Positions 1,367 through 27,661 of a stretch of DNA of 27,661 nucleotides are shown here, piece after piece. Source of the DNA: Chromera velia (Eukaryota; Sar; Chromeraceae); contig JAHBMJ010001412.1 of the NCBI GenBank assembly GCA_018398765.1, positions 1-27,661 on the forward strand, in the 5' to 3' direction. The translations under genes were made by a program, and so were the position numbers. The notes under the pieces are model-generated. The model did not search any database. It had not been told where the DNA came from and saw only the letters and a list, made by a program, of their open reading frames with translations. Numbering within the stretch: position 1 is the stretch's first letter; each line of letters starts with the position of its first letter.

Positions 1367-2560
1367 CTACCCAGCTTGAGCTAGCGTTTCAGGAGACATC
1401 ACATGGAAGGCTGCCATGTCATGGAACCGACAGATGTCGTTTCCCTGAAGCCTCACCTCCCCGAGAGTGCTGGCAAGGAGATCGAAAGTTTCCTTCAAAG
1501 CCCTGAAAGCCTTCCGGGCTTCCTTGCTCGTTGGCCTGTAAAGCTGGTAAGCAAACGTGGAGTGAAATCTGTAATCAGGGTCCAGTCGGACCCCCAAATC
1601 CCTGCAGTTCTCTTCAATGGAGGCTCTCCAGGCAGACAGCTGCTGTCGTGTCTGGTCGTCCGGCTCGAGGGTGACTGAGCACGCTTTTCCGTTCACACTG
1701 ACAGGTCGGAAGACGAGAATTTCCGGCTTCAAGTGGGACGCGCATGCATATGCACGGGAAGCCGTAGTGTGAAGCCGTTGCTCAAAGCCTTGTGGGTCAC
1801 TGAGGAAAGTCTCTGAGACAAAGGAGATTAGGTCGAGGGTGGTCACGTGAAAACTTGGGGGAGGGAGGAGAGCGTAGTGGGGGGCAAGAAGGGGATGGCT
1901 TTCAATCATCTTCTGCATCATCAACATTCTCTGGTGGAGTGGGTGGTCGCGCCCATGATGAGAAACTACAGTCACCCCCTCACACTGAATGGTGTTCCCC
2001 ATTGAGTCGAACTTGTTGGACGACAGATGCATAATCAAAGGTAGTCGGGAGATGGAGAGCACAGACATGCGGACAGGATCAATCCAGTTGGAAAATCCCA
2101 CAAACTTCCATCGAAACAGCTTCCCATTTCCAATACGGGCGCTGAGAAGAATGTTGTCGACGCAGGGTCGCGGGTTCTGGTCGTTCAACGTACCCATGAA
2201 CACCCACCCTGTTTGCCTGTCCAGCCCAAACCAGAATGTCTTTTCTTCTGAACTCCCTGATGCCAGAGATTGAGGGGCATCCGTTGTGAAGGGAGGATTG
2301 ACCCATGGGTTCCCAAGGCCAATGGCCGACCGCGTGTTTCCGTTCTGTCCCACCACAAAGCAAACACCCAAAGAATTGCCTCGCGTCTCCGTCTCCGGGT
2401 TGGCGTTCGAGATCACGACACGAAACTCTCCCCCAGAGGCTCGAAGAATGACACATACACTGTCTTCTTTGCGGCCCGCCATAGTATGGTCGGTACACTC
2501 AAGGGGAAAGGTGTGACCAAGCGTGAACCCCTTCAAGTTGCTCAGGTCCAGGGATTGCAT
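1367..2560 (-). CDS. FAMeT-like domain / DUF1868 2H phosphoesterase fusion protein
   Basis: Single-exon minus-strand frame, 397 codons from the first ATG at 2560-2558; the frame is open a little further upstream (GTG at 2587, in-frame TAG beyond it), so the ATG is the simplest start. Two domains are visible. The first half resembles the farnesoic acid O-methyltransferase-like domain (PF12248 type): a VGQNGNTRSAIG stretch, then FWFGL, GWVFMGT and FVGFSNW, matching the family pattern G-x-N-x-(R/K)-S-x-I ... F-W ... V-G ... V-G-F/V-S. The second half resembles DUF1868 in the 2H phosphoesterase superfamily. It has the two diagnostic H-x-T motifs, FHVTT and FHSTFAYQLY (about 95 residues apart), and the closing CRFHDMAAF pattern. 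2H enzymes act on RNA or nucleotide phosphodiester bonds, often 2',3'-cyclic phosphates; the substrate here is unknown. Both histidines and both threonines are present, so the enzyme may be active. The FAMeT-like domain is not a proven methyltransferase and probably serves binding. No signal peptide is evident. Confidence 0.85.
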   Translation of the reverse strand: MQSLDLSNLKGFTLGHTFPLECTDHTMAGRKEDSVCVILRASGGEFRVVISNANPETETRGNSLGVCFVVGQNGNTRSAIGLGNPWVNPPFTTDAPQSLASGSSEEKTFWFGLDRQTGWVFMGTLNDQNPRPCVDNILLSARIGNGKLFRWKFVGFSNWIDPVRMSVLSISRLPLIMHLSSNKFDSMGNTIQCEGVTVVSHHGRDHPLHQRMLMMQKMIESHPLLAPHYALLPPPSFHVTTLDLISFVSETFLSDPQGFEQRLHTTASRAYACASHLKPEILVFRPVSVNGKACSVTLEPDDQTRQQLSAWRASIEENCRDLGVRLDPDYRFHSTFAYQLYRPTSKEARKAFRALKETFDLLASTLGEVRLQGNDICRFHDMAAFHVMSPETLAQAG

Positions 2561-2587
2561 GGCTTCCGTGTCGTGAGATTGGAACAC

Positions 2588-3256
2588 CTTCTTCCCGTCT
2601 CCTGACTGCGTGTCCGTCTCCTATCTGTTCACAGACTGCAGTTCAGAACTGCAGTGCTTCAGGATCAACTTCTGAGTGCAAGCCGGCAGTAAGTGCCTCA
2701 TCTGTTGCACTGGTGACGACCAACACAGTGAATTAAAGGTTCGGTCGGAGTTTATCAGCCGCAATGAATTTGAGTTGACTCGAGAGGTAAGCTTGTGTAG
2801 ATGCAATCGGGAAGATGCTGCCATGAAAATCGGCTTTGAACCCGATTATCATCTGGCCGGGCCCGGCCCGCGCGCGCGTACGTCGAACGCGGACAAACAT
2901 ATGCATGCAGCGCTCATGCATGCAATCAAGTCTTCAATTCAACTGTCACTGACCGGCTGTCCTTCTCAAACCCACTTCAATACGAATAGAAGACAATAGA
3001 AGACATGCTCTGACAACAGTCAAGACACGGTGAACCACGTTGTAAAACAGAGTCTTCTTTGGGTCAATATTAATACCCGCTTTTGGATGGGTGTCACACG
3101 CGTACAATACTCTGTACTCACACGAAATCAGACTGAGCGTTGTAGCGGACTATAATATATCGATATATATATGACAGGCTGCCTGTTTGCTGCTGGGGAG
3201 CTCCCACTGCAGAGTTTCGGATGGACTCGTAGATTCCAACAAATACTTCGTTTTTC
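2588..3256. promoter_or_regulatory. Divergent intergenic region with two TGCATGCA motifs
   Basis: This space separates the minus-strand 2H phosphoesterase gene from the plus-strand ankyrin gene, so it should contain both promoters. It has two perfect TGCATGCA palindromes at 2902-2909 and 2917-2924, just after a GC-rich stretch (2860-2880). TGCATGC(A) is an established cis element bound by ApiAP2 factors in Plasmodium and is enriched in Toxoplasma promoters. A TA-rich run (3153-3172) lies about 100 bases before the ankyrin start. Promoter function is inference. Confidence 0.45.
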
Positions 3257-3676: not shown

Positions 3677-4644
3677 GCGATCTCAGCAGAAACGTTTCGC
3701 CCTGCTGTCGATGTGTTCACGGAGAGGGGAGAACGTCAAAACTTCAATCTCTTTCTTCACGTGGGTGCAAATATAGACGGAAAAGTCTGGGGGAAGACGC
3801 CCTTAATCCACGCGATCGAGAAGAGAAACATGAGGGCTGTGGTCTCCTTGGTCAAGGCAGGTGCCGATCCGAACACAGCTGGAGGGGTTGGTGGCCTGCG
3901 GGCTCTTCATATTGCCTGCCTCAGACGAGAAGAGAAAATCGCGCGATTCCTTGTGCTCCACGGAGCGGATTTGAACCTGCCTGAAAATGGAAGAGAGCAA
4001 GCTCTTCACCTCGCGACTCGAGGGGCTTCTCTGCAGTTTCTTGACTTTCTGATTTCACGTGGAGCAGATTTGAACGCGCAAACCATCCGGGGGAGGGAGC
4101 CATTCACATTGCCATCCGACTTGGTCGGGAAATCGCTGGTTTGCATTTAGTGCGCAAAGGCGCGAATGTGAATCTAACGGAGATCAACCGAGGGCGTACA
4201 CCGCTGTTCCATTGTATCGAAGTGCTATTGCGCATGCAGAGAGGTTTGCCTGCTGCCTCAGACAATCGTGTGATGGCGACAGGGCTCCTCTCTCATGGAG
4301 CAGATGTGAACGCAAGAGACGAGAATGGACAGACACCTCTCCACACCGCTACTCTTGTGGGTGCCGTTGAGATGGCCGAATTCCTTCTCAACAACGGCGC
4401 CGATCTGCATGCGGCGTGCAACGACGGCCGCACTGCTCTTCACTACAGTGCCACCAGGGTTGGGTGGGCCCGCAACCCCGCCACCTATCGGGGCATCGAG
4501 AAGCGGGATGTGGCTCGTCTCCTTGTCAACAGAGGCATCGACGTGGATGCAGTGACAAACGACGGGGACACAGCTCTCGACTTTGCAGAGGATGACTTTG
4601 ATGGGGACTCTCCCATTCGCGTCTACCTCTTCGATTTGAGTGTT

Positions 4645-4713
4645 CAGGCACTGGCCCCACCCATGCCGGCACTGGCCCCGCCCATGCCGGTACTGGCTCC
4701 ACCCATGCTGCAG
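4645..4713 (+). repeat. 21-nt tandem repeat coding LAPPMP(A/V) tail
   Basis: About three copies of a 21-nt unit related to CTGGCCCCACCCATGCCGGC close the ankyrin frame and encode LAPPMPA-LAPPMPV-LAPPML. The copies differ at a few bases. A proline-rich tail of this kind could bind partners, but that is inference. Confidence 0.8.
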
Positions 4714-4716
4714 TAA

Positions 4717-5740
4717 CTCAACAACTAACTGCATGCGGGAGGTAGCTAAGCACTGTCGCAGCCGTATGTCGAGACAGTTCGTCACAGTCGAGATCTCGTC
4801 GTTATAATGAGTCTGTTGAGCTAACAGTCAAGCCGCGTGCTTTGATAATAGACTTTCAGACGATGTCTGAGTAAATCAAATAATGTCTCCCTGACCATAG
4901 CCCTGATTATATAGGTTTCTGCATGACCTTAAATCCTTGCACGTATGAGGTTAAAGTAGAACTCGCCTAAGTTGCCTCACAATTTTGAGCAAAGTCTTAG
5001 CTGCAAAGATAAATGATTATATCTATAGCATTCAAAGTTGTATGAATTTAGGCTTGAAAAAATTTAATTTGAAAATAGATTTGATTTTTTTAGCTAGTCT
5101 TTTAGTCATATGATAGCAGTTACTGCCAACTTACTGGAGCAGTTATACCCTGCCTAGTATAGACTAGAGTATAGAGTAAAAACTAAAAATTTTGAATTAG
5201 CTAATTCGAGGCTAGATTCGAGGCTTCCGAGCCTAATTGATTAATCGCTAAACATAGGGCTATTAAAACATTTAGTGAAAAACGTATCAGAATAAATGGC
5301 CTCATATTAAAATGAACTTTCATATATTCATATCTGACAGAAACTTAATTGAATTGAAATTATTGAGGCACTGAACTTGAAAGTTGGAAACTGATGACAC
5401 TAAAACTATAAATTAAAGCTTTTTGTGTTTTTGAATGGAAAACTAACAAAGTGTAGTATATAATGAAAAAAAGGATAAAAGATGACAAAAACTACTTCTG
5501 AAGCTTAGTTTGACTAAGTTTGTATGCAAAGTATACCTAGAATTATACTATATCCTATACTACACCGTACTTTCTGCATGCGAATTATAGCTATATCACT
5601 ATATTTAGTTCTAAAACTAGGTATATGTTGACTAAAGAAAAAAATATAATAGAAAAGATACCTAGAAATATACAAAACAATGTTATAGATGCATAATAAG
5701 AATATAACATAATATAATTCGATGTCTTTAATGGACTAAA
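4717..5740. other. AT-rich island without genes
   Basis: After about 4840 the sequence is strongly AT-rich with many stop codons in all frames, runs of A and T, and frequent CTAG and TATA words. It ends near 5740. No coding frame, tRNA-like fold or clear terminal inverted repeat was found by eye. Confidence 0.6.
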
Positions 5741-7585
5741 AGAACCGTGTACGTTGGCAAAGAGATGCAAAGAGGAACATATCGTCTGCATGTCTCCGGT
5801 GACGTTTGCATGATCAAATGATTCAAATCACAACTTGTTTCACAAGCATGTACTGATATGTACTTTCGCATGTACTTCAATTGACATACATGAAAACATT
5901 TTGACCAAGCACAACTAGAAGCACAATGTATTTTGCACAACGAGACGTTTGCATGGTCCCATATATTACAACACATACGAAATGGCAGACAAGCTCATGG
6001 ACTTTGCTCACTTGCACGGATCGACTACACCCGAGCGGAGCGATGATCAAATCCGTCGATCGATCGTGCATACATACCCATTCCTTCACCTCATCCAGCT
6101 TGAGGTTCCCCTGTTTCTTCTCTCTTTTAATTGCACCCTCTGCATACATGGCCGTCAGACCGATGAATCGGGCCGAGGCTCTGAATTCAGAACGATCGAA
6201 TTGATTCAAGAAAGTGACGATGCAACCCCCTGCAGGGACCGTCTCGGACTCGGTCCTGATCGAGGGATTCAAACAAACAAACAAACAAACAAACAAACAA
6301 AGCCACTACTCTTGCAGCGCAGTGAAAGAAATGGAGAAGGGTAGGCAGGTCTCCAACATGCGTTGTCATTGGACCCCCACCTTTCTTCTCCCCTTCTCCT
6401 CTGTCACCTCACTCTGATCTTGTCCTCCGCCAGTTGAGTTCATTAATTCCCCCCTTCCCTCTGAAAAATCTCCAGTCCGAATTCTCCCACCCCCCCTTTC
6501 TCTTTCTTCCCTGTGGTTGCCCCAGTGAGGTGGGCAATAAACTTTGACTGTAAAGGCTGAATTCACCAGTAAACTTTTCATTGGCCCAATCTCGACCCAT
6601 CGTCCAGCTCAGTGATTCCCAAACACGGCTAGCTGCCTCATGTTCTTGCCAAGCACAATCACAGACCTTCCTTGCAAGCGGCCTTTCTTTTCTTTTCTTT
6701 TGTGCGAATCTCCAACGTCCCCATCCCGACATCTTCAATCAATTTCTTTGCCCTCCATTCGAACTGTCACTCAGCCGGTCTTTCTCCCCTGTAGCTTTGG
6801 AAGAATTCGCAAACGAGCAGGCAGTCAAATTGGACATTCCGGCCATTCGTTACACCGGTTGGATTCGGGGGATTACAAAGCGACGAAGGTGATGAATTAG
6901 AGTTAGTGACGCAGGAATACAAACACACATACACACGCACCAGTAGAGAGGGGGAAAAAGCAGAAAAACAGCGCGGTAGTAGAAAGAGAGAGTGCCGGCG
7001 GCATTTCAGTTGAAGAAGATAAGTAGAAAGATAGAGCGAGCAACGACGCCAGCCCGCTTCGTGTTCTTGCAGTCTCTCTCCACATTTCTTTCTTCATTCT
7101 CTGTCTGGCATGACGCTAGGTCTGCCCTTGAGGGCCAGCAGATCGATCAACAGGGAAGGGAGGAGGGGAAACAGCAGACAAACACACATGCAGGTATACA
7201 AATACCCGTGTCTGTACTCTCTCTCACACGCACACTGTCACACACAAAGTGGGAGGCCAGGGTAGGGACAAGACAAGAACTTCGGAAGAGACCGGCATAG
7301 AAATAAACGGCCAGGCAGACATTCCGACATTTCTCTTTTTCCCTTTCCCCCCTTCTTCTTCTTTTTTCAGTGCTGTGCTTCATTCCTTCCTTCCTCCATC
7401 ATACTTAGAGCTCAGGATCCGTTCGCTTCGCTTCACGAAGAGAGACAGGGAGAAGAAAGAAGAGGGAGATGGAAGGAGCGAAGTGAAACAACGAAAATCA
7501 AAAGGCTGTCCTTACTGAATTAAGGTAGGAGAAGACCTACTTCAAATCAATCCAGTTCAATTCAATGCAATACAAATCAATTGAG
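5741..7585. other. Gene-free stretch with simple sequence
   Basis: Several chance frames overlap on both strands between 5877 and 7520, none with a recognisable domain, and they cover pyrimidine- or purine-rich sequence (for example 6370-6510, 7070-7110, 7340-7400). The right end should carry the 3' UTR of the minus-strand GATA-finger gene (stop at 7586-7588). An undetected short exon cannot be excluded around 6580-6900. Confidence 0.4.
6270..6299. repeat. (CAAA)n microsatellite
   Basis: About seven uninterrupted CAAA/AAAC units, directly readable in the sequence. Confidence 0.95.
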
Positions 7586-8401
7586 TCAGCGTTCCATGTC
7601 CACGTCTCCCTCCTCCTCGTCGAATTCTTCCCCTTCCTCCTCCTCCTCTTCCTCTTCCTCGTCTTCATATTCCTCCTCGTCCTCGTCTTCTTCCATCTCA
7701 GAGGAATCCCTCCAGTCTCCGGCTCCCCTCCCACCCTCCCTGTCAGCAGAGCTTCCCCGCTGTCCTCCTCTGGAATGGCCAAAGAAGGGAGACATGGCCA
7801 GACTTGAACCTGTGGAGGAGCCCTCATGTTCGTCCTCTTCTTCTACCTCTCTTGAACGGAGAGCGGCCGAATGATGGTAGGGGGTGGAGTCCTCTTCCAC
7901 GTCCTCATCCTCCTCTTCGTCTTCATCTCTGTCGGAGAACTCCGCAGGGTCCTGCTGTCGACGTGCACGAGAGCGGGTGAGGGTCCCTTCGCGCACAGCG
8001 TTCCCTTCTCGGCCGTTTTCGGTCGGGTTTCGCTCTTTAGGTGTGGCCTCGAGTGTGCTCGCAGATCCAGAGGAACTGTTGAGATGCACGTCGGAGTTGT
8101 TGTCGTTGGGACACTCTCTCTCGCGATCGGGGTCGGATTGGGTCCTTCCCCTGATCAAACGCTGATTGCTCAGCTGCTTTGCTTCACGAGCATGAGCAAG
8201 AGCATCTCTGTTCGACTGTCGTTGAATCTGGAGGTAGCATCGGTTGCACACTCTGAGTCTGTCAACAAATCGCCACTGAGGTGTTTTGGAGATTGAACAG
8301 ATCACGCAAGCCTCTTGCTTCGTGTTGATGATCACCTTTGCAAGGGCTTCGTTAAACTGAGAAACCTTTGAGGCACGCATCAGCGAACGTTTGTTCTTCA
8401 T
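7586..8401 (-). CDS. GATA-type zinc-finger protein with acidic tail
   Basis: Minus-strand frame of 271 codons from the first in-frame ATG (8401-8399). The frame is open upstream to about 8644 with no ATG, and a good acceptor (TCTTTCCTGCAG, minus strand) ends at 8495, so the true 5' end may lie in an upstream exon. The finger (residues about 32-55 from this ATG) reads CVIC ... KTPQWR ... CNRCYLQ, that is C-x2-C-x16-C-x2-C. It has the TPxWR and CN-C-x-L signatures of GATA fingers, which bind (A/T)GATA(A/G) DNA through one Zn2+. The usual spacing is x17-x18, so this loop is one residue short. A basic, polar stretch follows, then a Ser/Arg/Glu-rich low-complexity region and an almost pure Glu/Asp tail (last 35 residues), which could be an activation or histone-binding segment. 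Likely a nuclear DNA-binding regulator; targets are unknown. Confidence 0.8.
   Translation of the reverse strand: MKNKRSLMRASKVSQFNEALAKVIINTKQEACVICSISKTPQWRFVDRLRVCNRCYLQIQRQSNRDALAHAREAKQLSNQRLIRGRTQSDPDRERECPNDNNSDVHLNSSSGSASTLEATPKERNPTENGREGNAVREGTLTRSRARRQQDPAEFSDRDEDEEEDEDVEEDSTPYHHSAALRSREVEEEDEHEGSSTGSSLAMSPFFGHSRGGQRGSSADREGGRGAGDWRDSSEMEEDEDEEEYEDEEEEEEEEEGEEFDEEEGDVDMER
7608..7700. repeat. TCC/TCT-rich trinucleotide tract coding the acidic tail
   Basis: Imperfect (TCC)n/(TCT)n on the plus strand, read on the minus strand as GAG/GAA/GAC codons for the Glu/Asp tail of the GATA-finger protein. Unit-number changes keep the frame, so the tail length may vary between strains. Confidence 0.85.
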
Positions 8402-8488
8402 ATTTGCTTCGCAAGAGGAGATTAGAAAGGTTTTTTGAATGAAGGGATGGGTGTCGTGGGGCGAGAGGATGTTGCGAAGGTCAGACAC

Positions 8489-9150
8489 TTGATCCTGCAG
8501 GAAAGATCCAGTGGTCTGCTTGAGCTGATGAGTGCGTGATCTGCTGCGTCTTTCTCGAATGTCAGAAATTCCTTTCTCTTGTCCAACTTTTCCATACCCA
8601 CTGTCACTGCAAGCAAGCTGCTGATCACGTATATTCGTTCCAGTTCATCTGCATGAGAAGCCTCAATTTGTCTGCCTGCTTGCGTGCACCTGCGTGCACA
8701 TGCATGCATGCACGCGTGCATGCATTTTGCTTTTTGCGCACGCGTACATAATTTCGAGCGCGCGGCGGCGCGCGCGCATGACGAGCGCAAACGTCAATTC
8801 GTACGTAAATTAACGCGAACGCAATGATGCATGCATGAAATTTAACGAATCGCAATCTTGATTTATTAATAGATCGACGAGATCAACAATCACTGTGACA
8901 CGAATGAAGTGATTGGGTTGAGTTTAATGTATACATATACCTCACGTTGCATACGCTTCACTTTTGGCGAACGTGGTTCAAGTCTTCCATGCTGCCTGCG
9001 CACTTCTCCTTTTAGGTGAAAAAGTCCGCCATGCGTGATGAACCAGACAGCTTCGTGAACAACACCCCTTTTCTTGACTCTGGACCGCTGCGTAAGAACT
9101 CATTTCTGAAGACGAAAACAGCGTAAGAGAGTCCCATTGGTTGGACGAAG
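8489..9150. promoter_or_regulatory. Divergent intergenic region with TGCATGCA cluster
   Basis: Lies between the minus-strand GATA-finger gene and the plus-strand giant gene. It contains a run TGCATGCATGCA at 8701-8712, TGCATGCA at 8717-8724 and again at 8828-8835, with a CG-rich block (8757-8780) between. As at 2902-2924, this is the apicomplexan ApiAP2-type palindrome placed in a divergent promoter region. Part of the left end (8489-8644) may be coding for the GATA-finger protein. Regulatory function is inference. Confidence 0.45.
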
Positions 9151-20800: not shown

Positions 20801-23448
20801 GAAGTGTTCTAACTGATCGAATTGGAAACAGTGGAGTTTCCTGTGGGGCTGATGCTTTCTTGCCAAGGAAGGCACATACATGCAATGGAGCCAGATATCT
20901 GCATACAATCATTCTCTTCTGTTTGTTGGTCTGTCTGTCTGTGTGTCTGCCTGCCTGTCTGTCTCTGTCTCTCTGTCTCTCTGTCTGTCTGTCTGCCTGT
21001 CTGCCTGCCTGTCTGTCTGTCTGCCTGCCTGTCTGTCTGTCTGTCTGTCTGTCTGTCTGCAGTTGCTTCACATCGCTGCCGTGAAGACTTCCCGACGATT
21101 GACAGAGCGGCTGTGGCGACAGAGGCTCCGAAGTAATGCGGTGAGTGGACGGACAGAGGGAGGTGCGTGGGGAGGGATTCAGCGATTGCTCTCGACAGGA
21201 AAACACTTGTTTAGCCTCTTTGGAGTGAAATTTCTGGACATGACTTGATTAGAAAAGAAAATTTGAGAATTCCAAACAGTTTTCCTATCCTGCATCAATC
21301 TGTTTTGTCTCCTGGTGACTTTGCACGTTCATGTCTCTCCCGGATCTGGTTTGGGTTCGTCATTTGCAACTTCCTGCTAGTTTCCCTCCTCTTGATTGTA
21401 TCTGGTTGTACATACTGCCTTCTCTGTTTTCATGCAGGCGTCTGCCTTTCTGGATCTTCGGATCAGGGGAGTCCATGCGAGTCTGTCCTTCCTTCTGCCC
21501 CTTCCTCCTGCGGATGCGGACATCCTTGAGGAGGAAGAGGTGGAGACAAAACTGAAGAGCGTCTCCAAGGAGAGAGAGCACATCGTCAAGAAGGTATGTA
21601 TGTTAGGGTGTCGGGAGCTTTAATTGTTTATTTGTTTGCTTGTCTGGTTTGCAGCCAGCGAGAAGGAGAGGCACATGCAGGGGGCTGAGAAGAGGCACAA
21701 TATGACAGAGAGCAAGCAGGAGCAGAACAAACGACGCTTCAAAACAGTCCCACATCCAGAAGAATTGAGAAAGAGTTTGTCGATGGAGCACCTCTGAGGA
21801 CAGTCACACCTCTGTGTAGTACGTGTCTGTTGGTCCAAGTGTCGGATGACCTCTGCTTCTTTCCTCCGCGTTTTCCCTTCCCTCCCCTGCAGATGCGCGA
21901 GCACGCAGTCTTCGAGAGGAGTTCCGATGCAGACCAGCAGTCATCGTCAGTTTCATCTCTCTTCCTTTCCACATTTTTCCTCTCCCCCCCCGTCTATTCT
22001 CGTATTCCTCCTTGAGCCCTCTACTGGACTAAAACGAGTGACCCGACTTGCCTGGTAGGCATCCACCTTTCTCCCCGTTCAATCCTTGTCACCGCATGAA
22101 TCAGACACTTGTTTCCCAAAATTGTGTATAAACCGTGGAGTCAATCATCCCAGCAAAGGCCTCACCAGAGAGCCAGACCACCCGATGATAAGCGTGATTT
22201 GTCTGATGTGGAGTGTCAAAGAAGAGCTGAAAGGTACGAGAGCAACATAAATGATCGAAGAAGACGGTCGTGCAATCCGGAAGGAACTCCAGAGAGGCAC
22301 AACACAAATCGGAGGGGCTCACCCCGACCTGCACGCCTCTCCTTGCAGAATTCTGATAGAGGACGGGATCCGTGTTATGCTGGACACCATCAAAAAGGGA
22401 GGCTCGGTCAGTCAGAGAGGTCATCCGTCTCCTCTTTTGATGGAACCCTCCATCAAAAGTTTTTCGTTTCACCGGAGGTCATGAAGAGGTTCGACTGCAG
22501 CCATGAAATTACAGGAGTTCATGAGTCTATTTGTCATTTGCTGAGTCAGTTTTTTCATTCATCCGTTTATGAGGCAGTCATTCAAGTATTCTGTGTCACA
22601 GCTCCTGGAGGCCAAGTGACTCGAATGTTCTGATGGTAGACGACGTCAGAGTGACAATTTCCGGTATACCCCGTGTCTGTGAATCTGTGTGCAGAATATG
22701 CGTGCGTGCGAACACCAAGCAGATTCGTACAAGGTCTGTCGAGGAAAACGCAATTTTTTCACCGTATATGGACGTCAATGAGAGATGCTCTTTGCATTCT
22801 CTTCCGTCGGCAGGAAATGATTGAAGCCTCAGCGCCCTCTGAAGAACCAGAGTGATGGACAAAACTTGCTCTGACAGATCCATTGCACGCAGCATGCAAA
22901 AATCCCCCGAACGATCCTGCACGCATGAATGCCTCTCTCTGTATGTTCGGACCCTGCATGGCCGTCTCTCTCTCTCTGTGCAGACACTGGTGGACACACG
23001 ATCGGCCAGCGCACCCAGGCAGGCGGAGAGGTGAGCAAGAGAAACAACCAATGTTTTTTCCTCGTGGAGTAAACTTTCAATCATGTGACTGTAATTGATG
23101 AACCAGTGCTTGCGTGAAGTCGTCTGTCAAGGGCCTATTTGAGAATTCGCTGCTGCGCTTTAGGTAGGTAAGCAAGAAAGGGAAAGCACGGATCTGTGAT
23201 CGAGAGAAGATCGATTTGATTTTACTCATCTTCGCACACTTCTTAGCGACTGTTTAGCAAAAAGGGAAAAGAAAAAGATGTGTTGCAATCGCTTTCGAGA
23301 CTTTTTGCGCTTCATGCTTACTCTTCTTCATGCGCTGTACCCGCGTCTGTTTATTTGCAGACTGTTGGCCTTGTGTGCCGGGTCGGAAGAGGCGCTTTCC
23401 CACGTGCTGAGGGTCTGTAAAACCGTAAAATCTCCTGTTCAAATGTAG
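9151..23448 (+). CDS. Giant multi-exon gene, unknown family, EF-hand-like N-terminus
   Basis: I assembled this by eye from GT-AG sites with matching phases. Exons: 9151-9310, 9351-9474, 9863-10103, 10610-10677, 11208-11268, 11522-11577, 11816-12140, 12413-12728, 13056-13239, 13406-13648, 13984-14045, 14321-14458, 14887-14941, 15285-15534, 15709-15999, 16222-16778, 17177-17477, 17923-17979, 18265-18669, 18995-19062, 19316-19456, 19693-19781, 19974-20158, 20337-20762, 21063-21140, 21438-21593, 21893-21945, 22349-22406, 22695-22733. It then ends either in 22814-22855 (TGA; 1,742 aa) or in 22984-23030 plus 23361-23448 (TAG; 1,773 aa). Twenty-nine exons give 1,729 codons without a stop. The start ATG has an in-frame TAA 27 bases upstream and yields MGNWISGK, a possible N-myristoylation site. 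Residues about 60-218 look like degenerate EF-hands. Then come a Gly/Ala linker, helical segments, an acidic region (about 795-1000), and a helical C-terminal half. No transmembrane segment or enzyme motif is evident. Function unknown; possibly a large membrane-tethered scaffold (inference). Confidence 0.85.
9808..9860. repeat. (GT)n microsatellite abutting the exon 3 acceptor
   Basis: Long GT run with a few TATGT interruptions, ending directly in GCAG at the exon 3 splice acceptor (exon starts 9863). It replaces the usual polypyrimidine tract. Confidence 0.9.
10128..10261. repeat. Intron 3 direct repeat enclosing a hairpin
   Basis: A 30-nt direct repeat (GGAGGATCTGGGTCCAGGGA... at 10128-10157 and 10232-10261, one mismatch) flanks a 12-bp perfect inverted repeat, TTTCATACAGAA at 10174-10185 and TTCTGTATGAAA at 10206-10217, with a 20-nt loop. 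All lie within the intron 10104-10609. Confidence 0.85.
11005..11086. repeat. (TA)n run followed by poly-G with one N
   Basis: A TATA/TATG-rich tract to 11068, then G to 11086 with an N at 11072. The N shows the assembly is uncertain in the homopolymer. It is intronic (intron 4) so does not affect the protein. Confidence 0.9.
11781..11812. repeat. (GT)n microsatellite abutting the exon 7 acceptor
   Basis: About 15 GT units ending in GCAG at 11815; exon 7 starts at 11816. Same arrangement as at exon 3. Confidence 0.9.
12413..14941 (+). other. Helical middle region of the giant protein (exons 8-13)
   Basis: Spliced residues about 346-678. Contains amphipathic helices such as SLLDSLTKQQQRLAAMK, ALEVLVWLAGECA and LLQSLREQQEKLEAKGKEE, followed by an Ala/Lys-rich helix (KAFRAAQGATAAAKAAA). 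Exons 11-13 are small (62, 138, 55 nt); the 55-nt exon 14887-14941 is required to connect the phase-1 end of exon 12 to the phase-2 start of exon 14. Coiled coil or helical bundle is likely; no family recognised. Confidence 0.6.
15826..16610 (+). other. Acidic low-complexity region of the giant protein
   Basis: Exons 15 and 16 encode long Glu/Asp/Gly/Ser/Pro-rich sequence, including a run of ten or more Glu codons at about 15915-15948 made of GAG/GAA repeats. Such regions are usually disordered. Intron 15 (16000-16221) splits it. The opposite strand carries long Ser/Pro-rich open frames only because GA-rich sequence lacks stops in reverse. Confidence 0.75.
16115..16189. repeat. (GAAT)n / (GGAT)n microsatellite
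   Basis: Tetranucleotide array with occasional GGAT variants inside intron 15 of the giant gene. Confidence 0.95.
17774..17822. repeat. (GA)n then (CAGA)n compound microsatellite
   Basis: About ten GA units passing into seven CAGA units, inside intron 17 of the giant gene. Confidence 0.95.
18265..18669 (+). other. Exon 19 of the giant gene: largest recognisable block before the C-terminal half
   Basis: A 135-codon, phase 0-0 exon with sharply defined TTGCAG acceptor and GTCAGT donor. The encoded sequence mixes Ser/Pro/Asn-rich parts with a conserved-looking end (IGSLMTADMLRELCGCDKSS, then Arg-rich helix). A good probe region for homologue searches because it is neither low-complexity nor purely helical. 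Confidence 0.6.
19659..19681. repeat. (TTTC)n microsatellite near the exon 22 acceptor
   Basis: Five or six TTTC units just before TTTGTTTCTGCAG, the acceptor of exon 22 (starts 19693); here the repeat itself supplies the polypyrimidine tract. Confidence 0.9.
19974..22733 (+). other. Helical C-terminal region of the giant protein (exons 23-29)
   Basis: Spliced residues about 1398-1729. Exon 24 holds RFAASVFEFLAWEMGIDVG, a Gly/Ala/Ser linker, then FKAFFSYLSKCSQDRDIRAY and FVMARVRLCVITALLRGWS. Exons 25-27 give basic helices (SRRLTERLWRQRLRSNA) and a Glu/Lys coiled-coil-like stretch. It has the look of an alpha-helical repeat or bundle domain; I cannot name a family. Confidence 0.5.
20923..21060. 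repeat. (CTGT)n/(CTGC)n compound array abutting the exon 25 acceptor
   Basis: About 140 bases of CTGT with CTGC and CTCT variants, running directly into CTGCAG at 21062. The pyrimidine-rich repeat acts as the branch/pyrimidine region of intron 24. Confidence 0.95.
22814..22855 (+). CDS. Alternative terminal exon A of the giant gene
   Basis: Acceptor CCGTCGGCAG, phase 0, encoding EMIEASAPSEEPE and TGA at 22853-22855. It joins in frame to exon 29 (22695-22733) through an 80-nt intron with a GTCTGT donor. Its acceptor is GGCAG, unlike the TGCAG at most other exons. No donor in it can carry the frame on to exon 22984-23030, so it is either a true end or an unused site. Confidence 0.5.
   Translation, partial: EMIEASAPSEEPE
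22984..23448 (+). CDS. Alternative 3' end B of the giant gene (two exons)
   Basis: Exons 22984-23030 and 23361-23448. The first has TGTGCAG acceptor and GTGAGC donor, the second TTTGCAG acceptor. They join in phase 2 and give 44 residues (TLVDTRSASAPRQAER then LLALCAGSEEALSHVLRVCK and a short tail) before TAG 23446-23448. The entry phase is 0, so exon 29 can splice here directly by skipping exon A. Both splice sites fit the gene's own style better than exon A does. Confidence 0.6.
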
Positions 23449-24643
23449 GAAGAGTCAATGGGAGTAGATTCTGTCTTTTATTTATCTGCAAGACGGTCAC
23501 TACTGAATACGTTACAATGCTTTCTCAGTCTTAAAGTTTGTGTATGTTGGTCTGTACTGAAGTTTGAATATTTAGAGGATATATAACCCCAGTTAGAATG
23601 CTAAGTATCGTTAATTACAATATACATTATACGTACTGTATGGAATACGAATTGTATTATAATCTACTAGGATAGGCGGTTTCTATATATATTTTTATAT
23701 GATATTATCTACTAGTGACTAGCATATAATGGAGTTGATGATAAAAGTATATAACATAAGTTTGTTTACAAATATTTGCATGCCAATTTCACTGCAAAAA
23801 CAAATATTAAAAATCAAATTTGTGTGTCCTTAGAGGGCATTTGAGGTAAAACTAAGGTTGTACTAATGAGATACATGTACAGTGAATTACAGTGAGAAAC
23901 ATCAGAAATTTGTATATAAACCTACAGATAAAAATTCTGTGTACGCATAATTTTCAACTTTTAAGTACCGCCGCCTGAGTAAAAACCTAATAAAGCACTA
24001 TAAAGCACTTATTTGAGTATGGATGTGCAGCGTGTGCTTTTAGCTATCATATTTTTAGTTATACTTACTAGCTATACTGAATTACTGATTATCTCATTAC
24101 GCCTTGCTGAAGTGATACAATGTCAGATACACAGATTAAGATAATACATCATTGTTCCGAAAAATGTATGTGTTCGAATTTTAGTGTGATTCTAGATCTT
24201 ACTAGATATTTTTTTTTTTTTAGTCTTCAGTCAATTACTGTTCACTCCCAGTCACTAGATCTGATTTAAATTCTGAATCTCATGCTGTTTAAAGTGGGGG
24301 AAAGCAGGGGGACCGCCCCCCCCACGCCCTCTTTGGTCCTCGCAGCGTGCGCGGCGTGCGCGGCGTCTGCGTAAACAAGATTTTTTTAATGATCTGCCAC
24401 CTATCCGCGAGCCTCGGCGTCTCTACGCATGTGTTGCGGACGTACGTATCTTACATTGTCAGACGCCATGTTCAATTGAACGTTGTTGGTGGGTTGAACT
24501 TTTAAAGAAACGATAAGCAAAGCAAAGCAGAGAGAAAAAGAGTAGAGAAAAGAGAAGAAAAGAAGATAAAGTAAGAGATAAGAAACAAAGGAGAAAAAGA
24601 TAAAAAAGCCAGTAAAAGATCGGCGCTTTCTCCTCCGATTGAA
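23449..24643. other. AT-rich island, then GC-rich and AG-rich leader
   Basis: From just after the TAG of the giant gene to about 24290 the sequence is AT-rich, with stops in every frame and no gene. It changes abruptly at about 24295 to GC-rich DNA with a tandem 9-mer GCGTGCGCG (24345-24353, 24354-24362), then an almost pure AG tract (24517-24607) before the CobW-like locus. The GC-rich block may be that locus's promoter; the AG tract creates hydrophobic chance frames on the minus strand. Confidence 0.5.
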
Positions 24644-26413
24644 GATGGGAGGCCCCAAACGAGAGTTCTGGTTCCATGACACGCGACCGATCATCAAAGT
24701 GAGTTAACCCTTTAGATGTAAACTTTTCTGTCATGAACACTGACTGGCATCCCTCTGTTGTGACTGTCTACGTACATGTGTTTTGTTGCCTCCTTCTGTG
24801 GCTCCCTGAGTGTTGTGCAGAGCACGAGTATGTTGCGTCACGGCTCTCCGTCTCTTTGTGAAAGGGAACATGTCTATATAGATCAAGGAAGGGGAATCAG
24901 TGAGTGCGGGGGTTCCGGCCGGGGTTAGAAAAATGATAGAGGGCGCTGTCAGAAGAAATTATCAACGGAATGGTGGGAAAAGTATCAGAAGCTCTGAATC
25001 ATCTGTCGGCTAGTCTGTTGGTGAACAATTCGAGAGAGTGTCACTGTTTGATTGAAATCGACTTTGCGTGTAGCAACTCAGCAATATGACAGAGGAGGCG
25101 GACCAGGTCCTGCACATTGACTCAGTCTGGAATGACGTCAGCGTGAAGCGTCGACAAATCCTGTCCCCAAATACAGACTCCAGTTTGCAAATGAGGAAGA
25201 CGCGTGCCTGGCGTTCCAGGGCGGTGTCGTTCCATTTCGCTGGGCGGCACATAGAGTTAGTGCCTACAGGAGAGCCCTATTTGATTGCGGTCCCCGAGGA
25301 GGAATGGAATGAGGAGAACACGGAGAAGCATCAGGAGTTGGTGTCAGAGGGGCAGTGGCATGCAGTGAATGGGGATCAGGAGTCTAAGCTTATCTTTATT
25401 GGCATCGGACTAGATAAACCCCGTATCCTGCAAGAGCTCAAGGCAGCATTGCTGACAGATGAGGAGATGGAAGGGGGTCCGGCACAGTGGAAGGAGATGG
25501 AGGACATTTTCTTTGGAAGGGAATTTTTTGACCTCCAAGAGGCAGGCGATGGAGAGAAGGAGGAAGATGGAGAGGATGAAGAAGAAAAAGAGGATGAAGA
25601 GATGCCTCCTGCATCGGGAGGGGGGACAGTGAAAGAAAACGAGTCAGGGGAGGTGGGAGGGGGGAAGAGAAAGAGGGTCGACACCCCTCTGTTGGCCGTG
25701 ACGTCTCCCGACGACCGCAGTGCCCAGATAAAGTCGGGGACAGAGGCCCTCGTCTTCGTGCCTCGATCGAGTGAGCTCAAGGTCATCTACAAAAAAGAAG
25801 TGCAGCTAGTAGTGTGGCGCTGTGAGGCCTATGAGCCTCTCCCGTCTTAAAGTTTGTCTCCACCCTGTCTAGTCATGAACTCACAGCAGCAAGTTTACTG
25901 AGCTTCACCAGCATTGTAAAGCTTGCAAACGCAGTGACAACAATCCGAAAGGGGCTATTGCTGGGCAAATCCTAAGGGCGCCGCGCTCTCTTAGATGAAC
26001 ATACCCAAGCGTTGGCTGCTGACATAGCCGAGCTTGTCAGAGTCTTCGCTGAAGTGTCAGGTTTAGAGACTATACATGTGAAATTGGAGTACGTGCAGGA
26101 CAACAGCTGCCAGTACTGACACCAGGACTGTGTCGACTTCCGTCTGGTCACCACGTACAGAGGGCCCTGCACTAAGTGGGTCCATCCTAATTTTTTAGAA
26201 GAGACCCTCCGAAGGCGCCGTTCCGATTCTAAGCGCGCCCAGTCTCTGACTCACCACGACGTTGCCCTCTTCAAGGGAAGAGGCGAGACCGCCCGGGGGG
26301 ATTCCCTCCTGCATCGGCTGGGCATCGTGCATCGATCTCCCTGGATCGAGGGGACCGGCCTCGTCCTCGTCCGTCTGGTGCTTATATTGGACATCCCCAT
26401 CCAGAACAACTGA
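24644..26413 (+). pseudogene. CobW C-terminal domain - DUF1826 fusion, decayed, GTPase domain absent
   Basis: The locus starts either at ATG 25086 or in a small exon 24644-24697 (MGGPKREFWFHDTRPIIK, GTGAGT donor) joined in phase 0 to an acceptor TGTAG at 25073. Frame 1 (to TAA 25848-25850) carries the CobW C-terminal domain, an acidic linker with KRKR, and VQLVVWRCEAYEP, which resembles the N-terminal VxLAVWxR motif of DUF1826. The DUF1826 body continues in another frame from about 25873 to TGA 26411-26413, interrupted by TAA 25973-25975 and TGA 26117-26119. It keeps the family's signatures: HQDCVDFRLVTTYRGPCTKW, DVALFKG and GIVHRSP. The TGA sits where DUF1826 has Phe in C-x-x-F-H. COG0523/CobW GTPases are metal (often zinc) chaperones, and DUF1826 genes neighbour zinc-responsive COG0523 genes in bacteria (from memory). 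The Walker A and CxCC region is missing upstream. Read as a 5'-truncated, decaying gene. Confidence 0.75.
25086..25850 (+). CDS. CobW C-terminal domain protein (intact open frame of the decayed locus)
   Basis: 254 codons from an ATG with an in-frame TAG 15 bases upstream. Residues about 36-139 match CobW C-terminal domains of the bacterial YjiA/YciC type: W-R-S-R ... ELVPTGEPYL, VPEEEW, a W before NGDQESKLIFIGIGLD (bacterial GDRRQELVFIGI), and ALLTDEEMEGGPAQW. Residues 154-173 are Glu/Asp-rich, then a Gly/Ser linker and KRKR. The last about 35 residues look like the start of DUF1826. With no GTPase domain it cannot be a normal metallochaperone. If expressed it would be a stand-alone C-terminal domain. 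Confidence 0.7.
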   Translation: MTEEADQVLHIDSVWNDVSVKRRQILSPNTDSSLQMRKTRAWRSRAVSFHFAGRHIELVPTGEPYLIAVPEEEWNEENTEKHQELVSEGQWHAVNGDQESKLIFIGIGLDKPRILQELKAALLTDEEMEGGPAQWKEMEDIFFGREFFDLQEAGDGEKEEDGEDEEEKEDEEMPPASGGGTVKENESGEVGGGKRKRVDTPLLAVTSPDDRSAQIKSGTEALVFVPRSSELKVIYKKEVQLVVWRCEAYEPLPS

Positions 26414-27110
26414 AGTAACAGTAAATCAGTATTTACGAAGGGCATTCGTTGCCTCATATTGTTTGGTCTCCTTCCGCAGTTTCTTTGCTTCGTGCCCCCC
26501 TTTTTGTTTTCCCGCCTGAGTCTTCTCACTTCAGTCTGCTTCTTGTCAATGTAGATATTTCTCTACATCTCTAGTCGTCTTTTCTCTCCTTGCATACATT
26601 CATTCTTCTTATCTCTTCGTCCGTCTTTCTTTAATCCTTCCGCTGTCTTCAGTCTGCCGCCAACCGAATCGGATGACCTTTTCTTTTTCTCTCCATGATC
26701 ATGTAAGCAAATTCATTCTGTCCCTCCCTGCCGGCTGTTCCTTCAGTTTTCTTCCGCTCTTGCTTGCTTGCTTGTTAGTGTGGTGCACCACTGTTTTCAT
26801 ATGCAGTGCCCCTGCTACTCTGTCTCTGCAACTGCGTCTCTTTCTGTCCTTCTGAAGTGTAGATCTGTCTCTCTGCATCTTTCTCGCGTTCACATGTTTG
26901 CTGCAGACGGGTCTGTCAGGAGGTACGACGATTTAAAAGGATGCACCGTGGGGCTACTGCCATTCACAAAACAGACGTTGAGTGATTGATGTATGCAGCG
27001 AAATGTAAAGTTTGTGCGGAGAGAGTATCCATGATTTGATCCTGGAACTACTCAAAGTCGGCCCATCTTTGTCTGGGATCTCTTCTTTTGTCGGGGAAAG
27101 TGATCTCTCT
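26414..27110. other. No recognised gene; one weak candidate exon
   Basis: Mostly pyrimidine-rich sequence. At 26907 a good acceptor (TTTGCTGCAG) opens a 28-codon frame, DGSVRRYDDLKGCTVGLLPF and a few more, to a TGA at 26987-26989; it could be a terminal exon of something, but no partner exon upstream was found. Confidence 0.3.
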
Positions 27111-27138
27111 TTTTGTTTAGTACACAGCCTAGTGCTCC

Positions 27139-27400
27139 AGTCTGTCTGTCTGTATGTCTGTTTGTCTATCTGTCTGTCTGTCTATCTATCTGTCAATTAG
27201 AAAAGAAGGAGGGAAAAGAAGAAGCAACATATAGTCTGTCTGTTTGTTTGCCTGTCTGTCTGTCTGTCTGTCTATCTGAAGAGAAGGAGGGAGAAGAAGA
27301 AGAAACATATAGTCTGTCTGTCTGTCTGTCTGTTTACCTGTCTCTCTGTTTGTCTATTTATAGTTTGTCTGTTTACTTGAACAAAGAAAGCAGGAAGAAA
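27139..27400. repeat. 78-nt higher-order repeat of (CTGT)n plus purine block
   Basis: Three blocks of (CTGT)n/(CTAT)n each followed by a purine-rich segment (AGAAGGAGGGAGAAGAAGAA type). The junction AACATATAGTCTGTC occurs at 27226 and 27304, giving a 78-nt period; the third copy is degenerate. Open frames across it code only Cys/Leu/Ser/Val simple sequence. Confidence 0.85.
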
Positions 27401-27661
27401 CTTACAAGTCTGTCCAGCTGTCGTCGGTTCCCGCGGCGTTCCTCTGCATCACTTTTTTTGTGTGCTTCATGTTTTTTTTGCAAGTTGGAGAAAGCTGTAC
27501 CCTTCTCTGTATGTAATGCGTTCTTTCCATCTGTCAGTATTGTGGTGCCTCATCCGAATATCCTGTATGGAAAACGTTGGAAGGAGTGTATGAGGGAGGG
27601 GAATTAGGATGAGGATACATGGGCGCTGGGGGGAAGCGCAGAGCTACTCGAGGAGGGGGGG

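Follow-up and report, generated by a model that had tools for sequence, protein, structure and literature searches.

A probable segmental duplicate of a predicted ZigA-like GTPase–DUF1826 fusion gene in Chromera velia, with substitutions dominated by C>T and G>A

Introduction

The closest described counterpart of the protein discussed here is a bacterial gene pair, in which a gene for ZigA, a zinc metallochaperone GTPase of the COG0523 family, stands next to a gene for DUF1826. In the parts of the literature that bear on the domain, DUF1826 is named in the Fig. 4 legend on Zur-regulated COG0523 clusters (PMC2770081), a Francisella DUF1826 gene was found by RNA-seq (PMC5786701), and a table row lists PA5534 as a DUF1826 gene beside zigA (PMC9431628). 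In zinc-depleted P. aeruginosa PA5534 is said to be enriched, with p-values of 0.423 and 0.056 in two data sets (PMC11761036). The passages retrieved for the word DUF1826 describe no fusion.

Two described processes offer precedents for the decay of duplicated DNA. One is the deamination of 5-methylcytosine (5mC) in silenced repeats. The other is repeat-induced point mutation (RIP), which in its classical form mutates both copies of a duplication. The passages available from PMC9998398 and PMC9246332 place RIP in fungi, and the latter places it mostly in Ascomycota. For Chromera velia, about 30 Mb of transposable elements are reported in PMC4501334; its main text, as accessible, mentions neither methylation nor methyltransferase. 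A literature search for DNA or cytosine methylation in Chromera or chromerids gave, among the titles listed, none on the subject.

Results

A truncated duplicate of a gene on another contig

The window, that is, the whole stretch of 27,661 nucleotides analysed here (contig C1410), contains a relic that is a segmental duplicate of a gene still present in the same genome, a relationship beyond what the initial annotation had described. In a DNA alignment, window positions 25222–27623 (+) match contig C865 26483–24118 (minus strand) at 91.66% identity. The features of the region are:

24644–25221 (+): interval without a match in C865, outside the CobW–DUF1826 relic
25074–25850 (+): 258-codon open frame, unrelated up to 25221, then the last third of CobW_C and an acidic linker
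25222–27623 (+): segmental duplicate, its left end in the last exon predicted for the C865 gene; about 1.2 kb of 3' flank is included
25827–25852 (+): span of two small frame-changing insertions absent from the parent (8 bp at 25827, 6 bp at 25847)
25910–26392 (+): DUF1826 (PF08856) relic, profile positions 45–202, with one TGA and one TAA in frame
25973–25975 (+): in-frame stop TAA, where the parent codon is CGA
26117–26119 (+): in-frame stop TGA, where the parent codon is TGG, directly ahead of the HQD motif
26413–27623 (+): duplicated 3' flank with tetranucleotide arrays

Searching the DNA of the same genome with the duplicate gave at least 133 matches, the best 40 of 984 candidates being scored. 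Among the matches listed, C865 is the sole full-length one besides the duplicate itself, and all others fall in the part with CTGT-type arrays. The relic had been placed at 24644–26413; it is indeed there, but the homology begins at 25222 and extends 1.2 kb past the right limit to 27623. We rejected 24644 as the left limit because 24644–25221 is unmatched in C865 and has no match listed elsewhere in the genome. The five short matches elsewhere that are listed for 23400–25222 (35–81 bp) all lie to the left of 24644.

The domain content agrees with what had been read from the sequence, a CobW C-terminal domain followed by DUF1826. CobW_C (PF07683) scores 24.3 bits against a cut-off of 22 in the frame 25074–25847, over profile positions 66–94 of 94, which is the last third of the domain; the fragment is absent among the 11 matches listed in a genome-wide PF07683 search. 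DUF1826 scores 101.5 bits with the stops read through. A match to PF08856 had been expected within 25873–26413, and even the stop-free end at 26126–26410, taken by itself, gives 55.5 bits (cut-off 22). The frame change and the two stops that had been described are found as the insertions and the TAA and TGA codons given above; both stops arose by C>T/G>A transitions, and the open frame ends at a stop within the 6-bp insertion. The GTPase half is gone, as had been proposed: the cobW nucleotide-binding domain PF02492 has no match on the window contig, so the locus does not itself qualify as a COG0523 GTPase, and the left edge of the duplicate falls inside CobW_C, which leaves the GTPase half out of the copy. 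An Rfam search of the window returned no match.

By eye, three small insertions in the copy (8, 6 and 6 bp at 25827, 25847 and 26666) resemble short palindromic or footprint-like duplications.

An intact parent, disabling changes and lost constraint, the marks of a pseudogene formed by segmental duplication, are all found for the window copy. The locus is, with high probability, a 5'-truncated segmental duplicate pseudogene of the predicted fusion gene on C865. Duplication at the DNA level is the best reading, given a left edge within the predicted last exon and the roughly 1.2 kb of 3' flank that was copied along. A processed retrocopy of the C865 mRNA would account for the lack of an intron in the copied stretch, but the parent is intron-free there too, its predicted last exon being 1.5 kb long; moreover, the 1.2 kb of copied 3' flank contains repeat arrays, the homology does not end in a poly(A) tract on its right side, and we regard this origin as very improbable.

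A live gene is harder still to credit. Its product would be a truncated protein or a regulatory RNA, made from the 258-codon frame or by splicing, and the frame 25074–25850 is in fact open: of the 16 C>T/G>A changes that could create a stop in it, none has occurred. Yet no constraint is visible in the frame, C>T/G>A changes having hit 18 of 203 non-synonymous sites and 9 of 132 synonymous ones, and the DUF1826 part is broken.

Intact predicted fusion genes in the same genome

The initial annotation had suggested that the lineage had, or still has, an intact GTPase–CobW_C–DUF1826 protein. Six-frame profile searches of the assembly (177.8 Mb, 4040 contigs) recover two intact predicted genes of this kind, on C865 and C1224. 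PF02492, PF07683 and PF08856 occur in this order on both contigs, and the predicted proteins, of 816 and 818 aa respectively and from three exons each, carry cobW, CobW_C and DUF1826 over the Pfam cut-offs; the exon joins were predicted from GT/AG sites and a kept frame. Parental CobW_C matches the full PF07683 profile with 49.8 and 49.6 bits. The predicted parent chain would thus consist of a ZigA-like COG0523 GTPase, CobW_C, an acidic linker and DUF1826.

ZigA is the best NCBIfam family for C865 and for C482. The ZigA equivalog NF038288 has a cut-off of 600 bits; the N-terminal part of the C865 protein scores 374.7 and C482 372.9, as against 606.9 bits for the Methylosinus neighbour gene, and the C865 protein is therefore a relative of ZigA and not a certified ZigA. 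Proteins of the C865 type share with ZigA the Walker A motif GAGKTT, the CICC motif and CobW_C; they differ from it in their lower score, in insertions and, in C865 and C1224, in the fused DUF1826.

PF08856 matches four places in the assembly, the window among them. One, on C1027, is a DUF1826 in an open frame of 338 residues. Two further GTPase relatives, on C482 and C1218, have no detectable DUF1826 in the stretch examined, and additional PF02492 matches lie on C544, C368, C608, C2089, C286 and C918.

In the stand-alone C1027 frame (L001 1423–2439, minus strand) a hydrophobic stretch resembling a signal peptide can be seen by eye near the start, and organelle targeting of this DUF1826 protein is possible.

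The bacterial gene pair and the origin of the fusion

The initial annotation names bacterial DUF1826 genes as neighbours of COG0523 genes. The arrangement is common, with exceptions: 22 of 40 bacterial loci have a COG0523 gene of the ZigA type immediately upstream of DUF1826 and in the same orientation. Among 398 genomes that share their phylum with Methylosinus, 47 contain PF08856, in 49 matches, three of them weak or partial, and 30 of the 49 were cut out with 1.5-kb flanks. Among these chromosomal loci the ZigA-type gene is directly upstream in 16 of 30, a cut-off fragment of it in one more, and 13 have none. A COG0523 gene also directly precedes DUF1826 in both pattern-search loci, one from Methylosinus sporium and the other from an uncultured MAG, and in four of eight plasmid loci (L111, L112, L113 and L116, where the zigA and DUF1826 genes overlap or abut; not L110, L114, L115 or L117). 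A single-chain fusion was found for none of the 49 PF08856 matches in the 47 of 398 genomes, all of one phylum. The longest DUF1826 open frame in that sample has 612 residues and was not counted as a fusion because the ZigA match there is in a different frame. The bacterial pair of the Zur-linked clusters, PA5535/PA5534 for example, thus has the same two parts in the same order as the Chromera genes, but as separate proteins, whereas in C865 and C1224 they form a single chain.

Three side observations concern these loci. Ten of the 30 bacterial loci, with a ZigA-type gene upstream, have a second, distant COG0523 frame (30–36% identity) downstream of DUF1826 on the same strand (L080–L085, L087, L090, L091 and L093). 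In L098, L099 and L101 such a downstream frame is present too, and the stretch examined has no upstream ZigA-type gene. In the MAG locus L079 (169–1950, +) the ZigA-type GTPase frame is broken by one in-frame stop.

Trees were built for both halves of the chain. The GTPase tree has 31 rows, comprising 15 of the 22 bacterial ZigA-type genes that are complete and upstream of DUF1826, eight other COG0523 rows chosen from the loci, and eight of ten COG0523 loci of the Chromera genome (C918 and C286 left out), and its sampling of COG0523 is narrow. C865, C1224, C1218 and C482 cluster together (100/100). A wider group with 92/96 support adds C2089 and all 15 DUF1826-linked rows from bacteria, and C544, C368 and C608 fall outside it; a long-branch warning applies to one plasmid row and to C2089. 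The DUF1826 tree has 37 rows, 34 of them from the 40 bacterial loci (L084, L085, L087, L090, L093 and L095 left out), with L078 and L079 as long rows. The three domains of the Chromera genome group together (93/89), within a group of 11 (93/88) whose remaining members are seven rows linked to zigA and a single further row; those from plasmids are alphaproteobacterial.

These groupings favour, without proving it, the earlier suggestion that the two parts were acquired as a unit. The reading that best fits the trees is that a zigA–DUF1826 pair was acquired and that fusion followed in the recipient; the parent gene would then be a eukaryotic fusion of a bacterial gene pair. Transfer via another eukaryote, or two acquisitions, are possible alternatives. 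C1218 is placed beside the fused C865 in the GTPase tree (93/71), which suggests that DUF1826 was lost later in C1218. As natural fusions, the predicted parents would tie DUF1826 to a ZigA-type zinc chaperone in one chain, beyond the link given by an operon neighbour.

What DUF1826 and the fusion may do

Twelve DUF1826 positions are invariant in all 37 rows, including C110, H114, D116, R121, H184 and R198 (P0001 numbering), in the pattern C..HxD..R..H..R. An Fe(II)/2-oxoglutarate oxygenase site consists of an HxD...H iron triad and a downstream R, and the HxD...H...R letters of DUF1826 recall such a site; the same letters could bind another metal. AlphaFold models built with two and three alignment rows are poor (pLDDT 39 and 47), and Foldseek with the pLDDT-47 model puts three plant dioxygenases on top (E 0.26–0.58), followed by unrelated proteins; none of 135 rows reaches E 0.001 or better. 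In view of the poor models, these E values and the unrelated proteins that come next, the oxygenase likeness is a lead only, and we hold an Fe(II)/2-oxoglutarate oxygenase-like DUF1826 to be a tentative idea, more doubtful than probable. One search for PDB sequence relatives of DUF1826 found none and another gave two chance-level rows (E 0.96 and 1.2); viral relatives were sought and none was confirmed.

When zinc is short, the parent protein may serve as a zinc metallochaperone driven by GTP, with DUF1826 as a metal-binding partner or enzyme domain of the fusion. The metal-site letters of DUF1826, combined with its zinc regulation in bacteria, make zinc (or iron) handling under zinc shortage a likely role; for a zinc chaperone role in particular, we consider the balance moderately favourable. 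The fused protein would be a convenient subject for biochemistry.

One-sided cytosine decay of the copy

With the parent branch as baseline, copy and parent differ by 149 substitutions: 130 lead, from parent to copy, from C to T or from G to A, four are reverse transitions and 15 are transversions. Of the C or G sites, 130 of 1,294 have changed in the copy and at most four such changes fall on the parent branch, a difference of about 30-fold. The duplicated flank considered separately has 71 C>T/G>A changes, two reverse transitions and nine transversions. Of 58 coding C>T/G>A sites that can be aligned to the fused C1224 gene, 41 have the parental base there, seven the base of the window and ten a different one; the seven that side with the window count against placing the changes on the copy.

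The changes affect both strands. There are 57 C>T and 73 G>A changes, and they are interleaved, in 68 runs where 65 are expected; single-stranded editing of a cDNA was rejected on these grounds. Sorted by the 3' neighbour, 45 of 262 CG, 46 of 331 CA, 22 of 337 CC and 17 of 355 CT sites have changed (CG and CA versus CC and CT, p 1.5e-8); 63 of 706 CHH sites have changed. The coding effects (35 non-synonymous, 22 synonymous and two stops) match the expectation from the available sites (33.8, 22.9 and 2.4), so that no selection is visible on the copy.

Such neutral coding effects, with CG as the most changed context, are also what an ordinary functionless duplicate would show if it decayed at the general rate of neutral change, including the usual CpG bias. 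Against this, the non-coding flank of the parent has at most two changes where that of the copy has 71, an argument that would weaken if the 1.2-kb parent flank were under selection, and CHH sites have changed as well. With the flank so one-sided, we rejected decay at the general neutral rate, which we regard as very improbable; a neutral clock drawn from the 15 transversions is imprecise, these being the only ones available.

Comparison with retrotransposons and with fungal RIP

Retrotransposons of the same genome offer a comparison. We sampled twenty 1-kb reverse transcriptase pieces (L058–L077), of which 19 fall in four families that we defined and L072 in none, and left out of the counts all pairs below 90% identity or 500 columns. 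Transitions to transversions number 567:49, 461:44, 136:7 and 444:36 in the four families, counts that are not independent since pairs share copies. The order of contexts in the four families is CG > CA > CC and CT, as in the duplicate. Single pairs vary, L058 versus L077 being one-sided (6 and 29) and L060 versus L069 balanced (18 and 17). Thus, the duplicate decays like a retrotransposon and the parent does not.

The duplicate may have been treated like a repeat, with decay of its cytosines, and cytosine methylation followed by deamination would be the simplest route. CG as the most changed context, the context preference shared by the repeats and the presence of PF00145 are points of likeness to 5mC deamination in silenced repeats. 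PF00145 matches occur in three contigs, and the family also includes tRNA methylases. We think methylation somewhat the better bet as the cause of the decay.

Active hypermutation of the RIP type, in which a process that senses duplication would deaminate cytosines of the copy in one or a few bursts, competes with passive methylation for this step and leaves the rest of the reading as it is. The copy resembles the product of fungal RIP in its directional C>T/G>A changes on both strands of duplicated DNA (130 versus 4 overall) and in having CA among its preferred contexts. It differs in that one of the two copies has changed and the other has not, the parent flank having at most two changes against 71, whereas classical RIP changes both; in that CG is changed more than CA; and in its host, since RIP is placed in fungi, mostly Ascomycota (PMC9246332). 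A six-frame search of the assembly gives eleven alveolin matches (PF12314), while one of 14 control genomes (Caulobacter) also matches; these favour an alveolate and not a fungus, and the host is probably an alveolate. RIP-like hypermutation seems to us an unlikely though respectable rival. In either form, decay in this duplicate of a probable alveolate would be methylation-driven or RIP-like.

A broader and speculative extension is that a non-fungal, probably alveolate duplication-sensing system, RIP-like or methylation-directing, destroys extra copies and retrotransposons by CG- and CA-directed deamination and spares the original; the evidence at hand leaves us doubtful of it. The 130 changes in the copy against at most four in the parent, together with the retrotransposon-like contexts, mean that a cytosine decay directed at the copy can be put to a direct test in this lineage.

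Other features of the window

Elsewhere in the window, a 417-aa open frame at 1370–2620 (minus strand) has a match of the 2H-phosphodiesterase type (PF08975, 37.8 bits), and ankyrin repeats extend across two overlapping open frames at 3677–4713 (+). A frame at 7589–8644 (minus strand) includes a CxxC...CNRC stretch that by eye resembles a zinc finger of the GATA type; it has no Pfam match at E 0.001. AT-rich blocks lie at 5001–6000 and 23001–25000 (31%, 38% and 43% GC), and their TA/AT ratios of 0.87–1.05 are unlike those of most of the remaining window.
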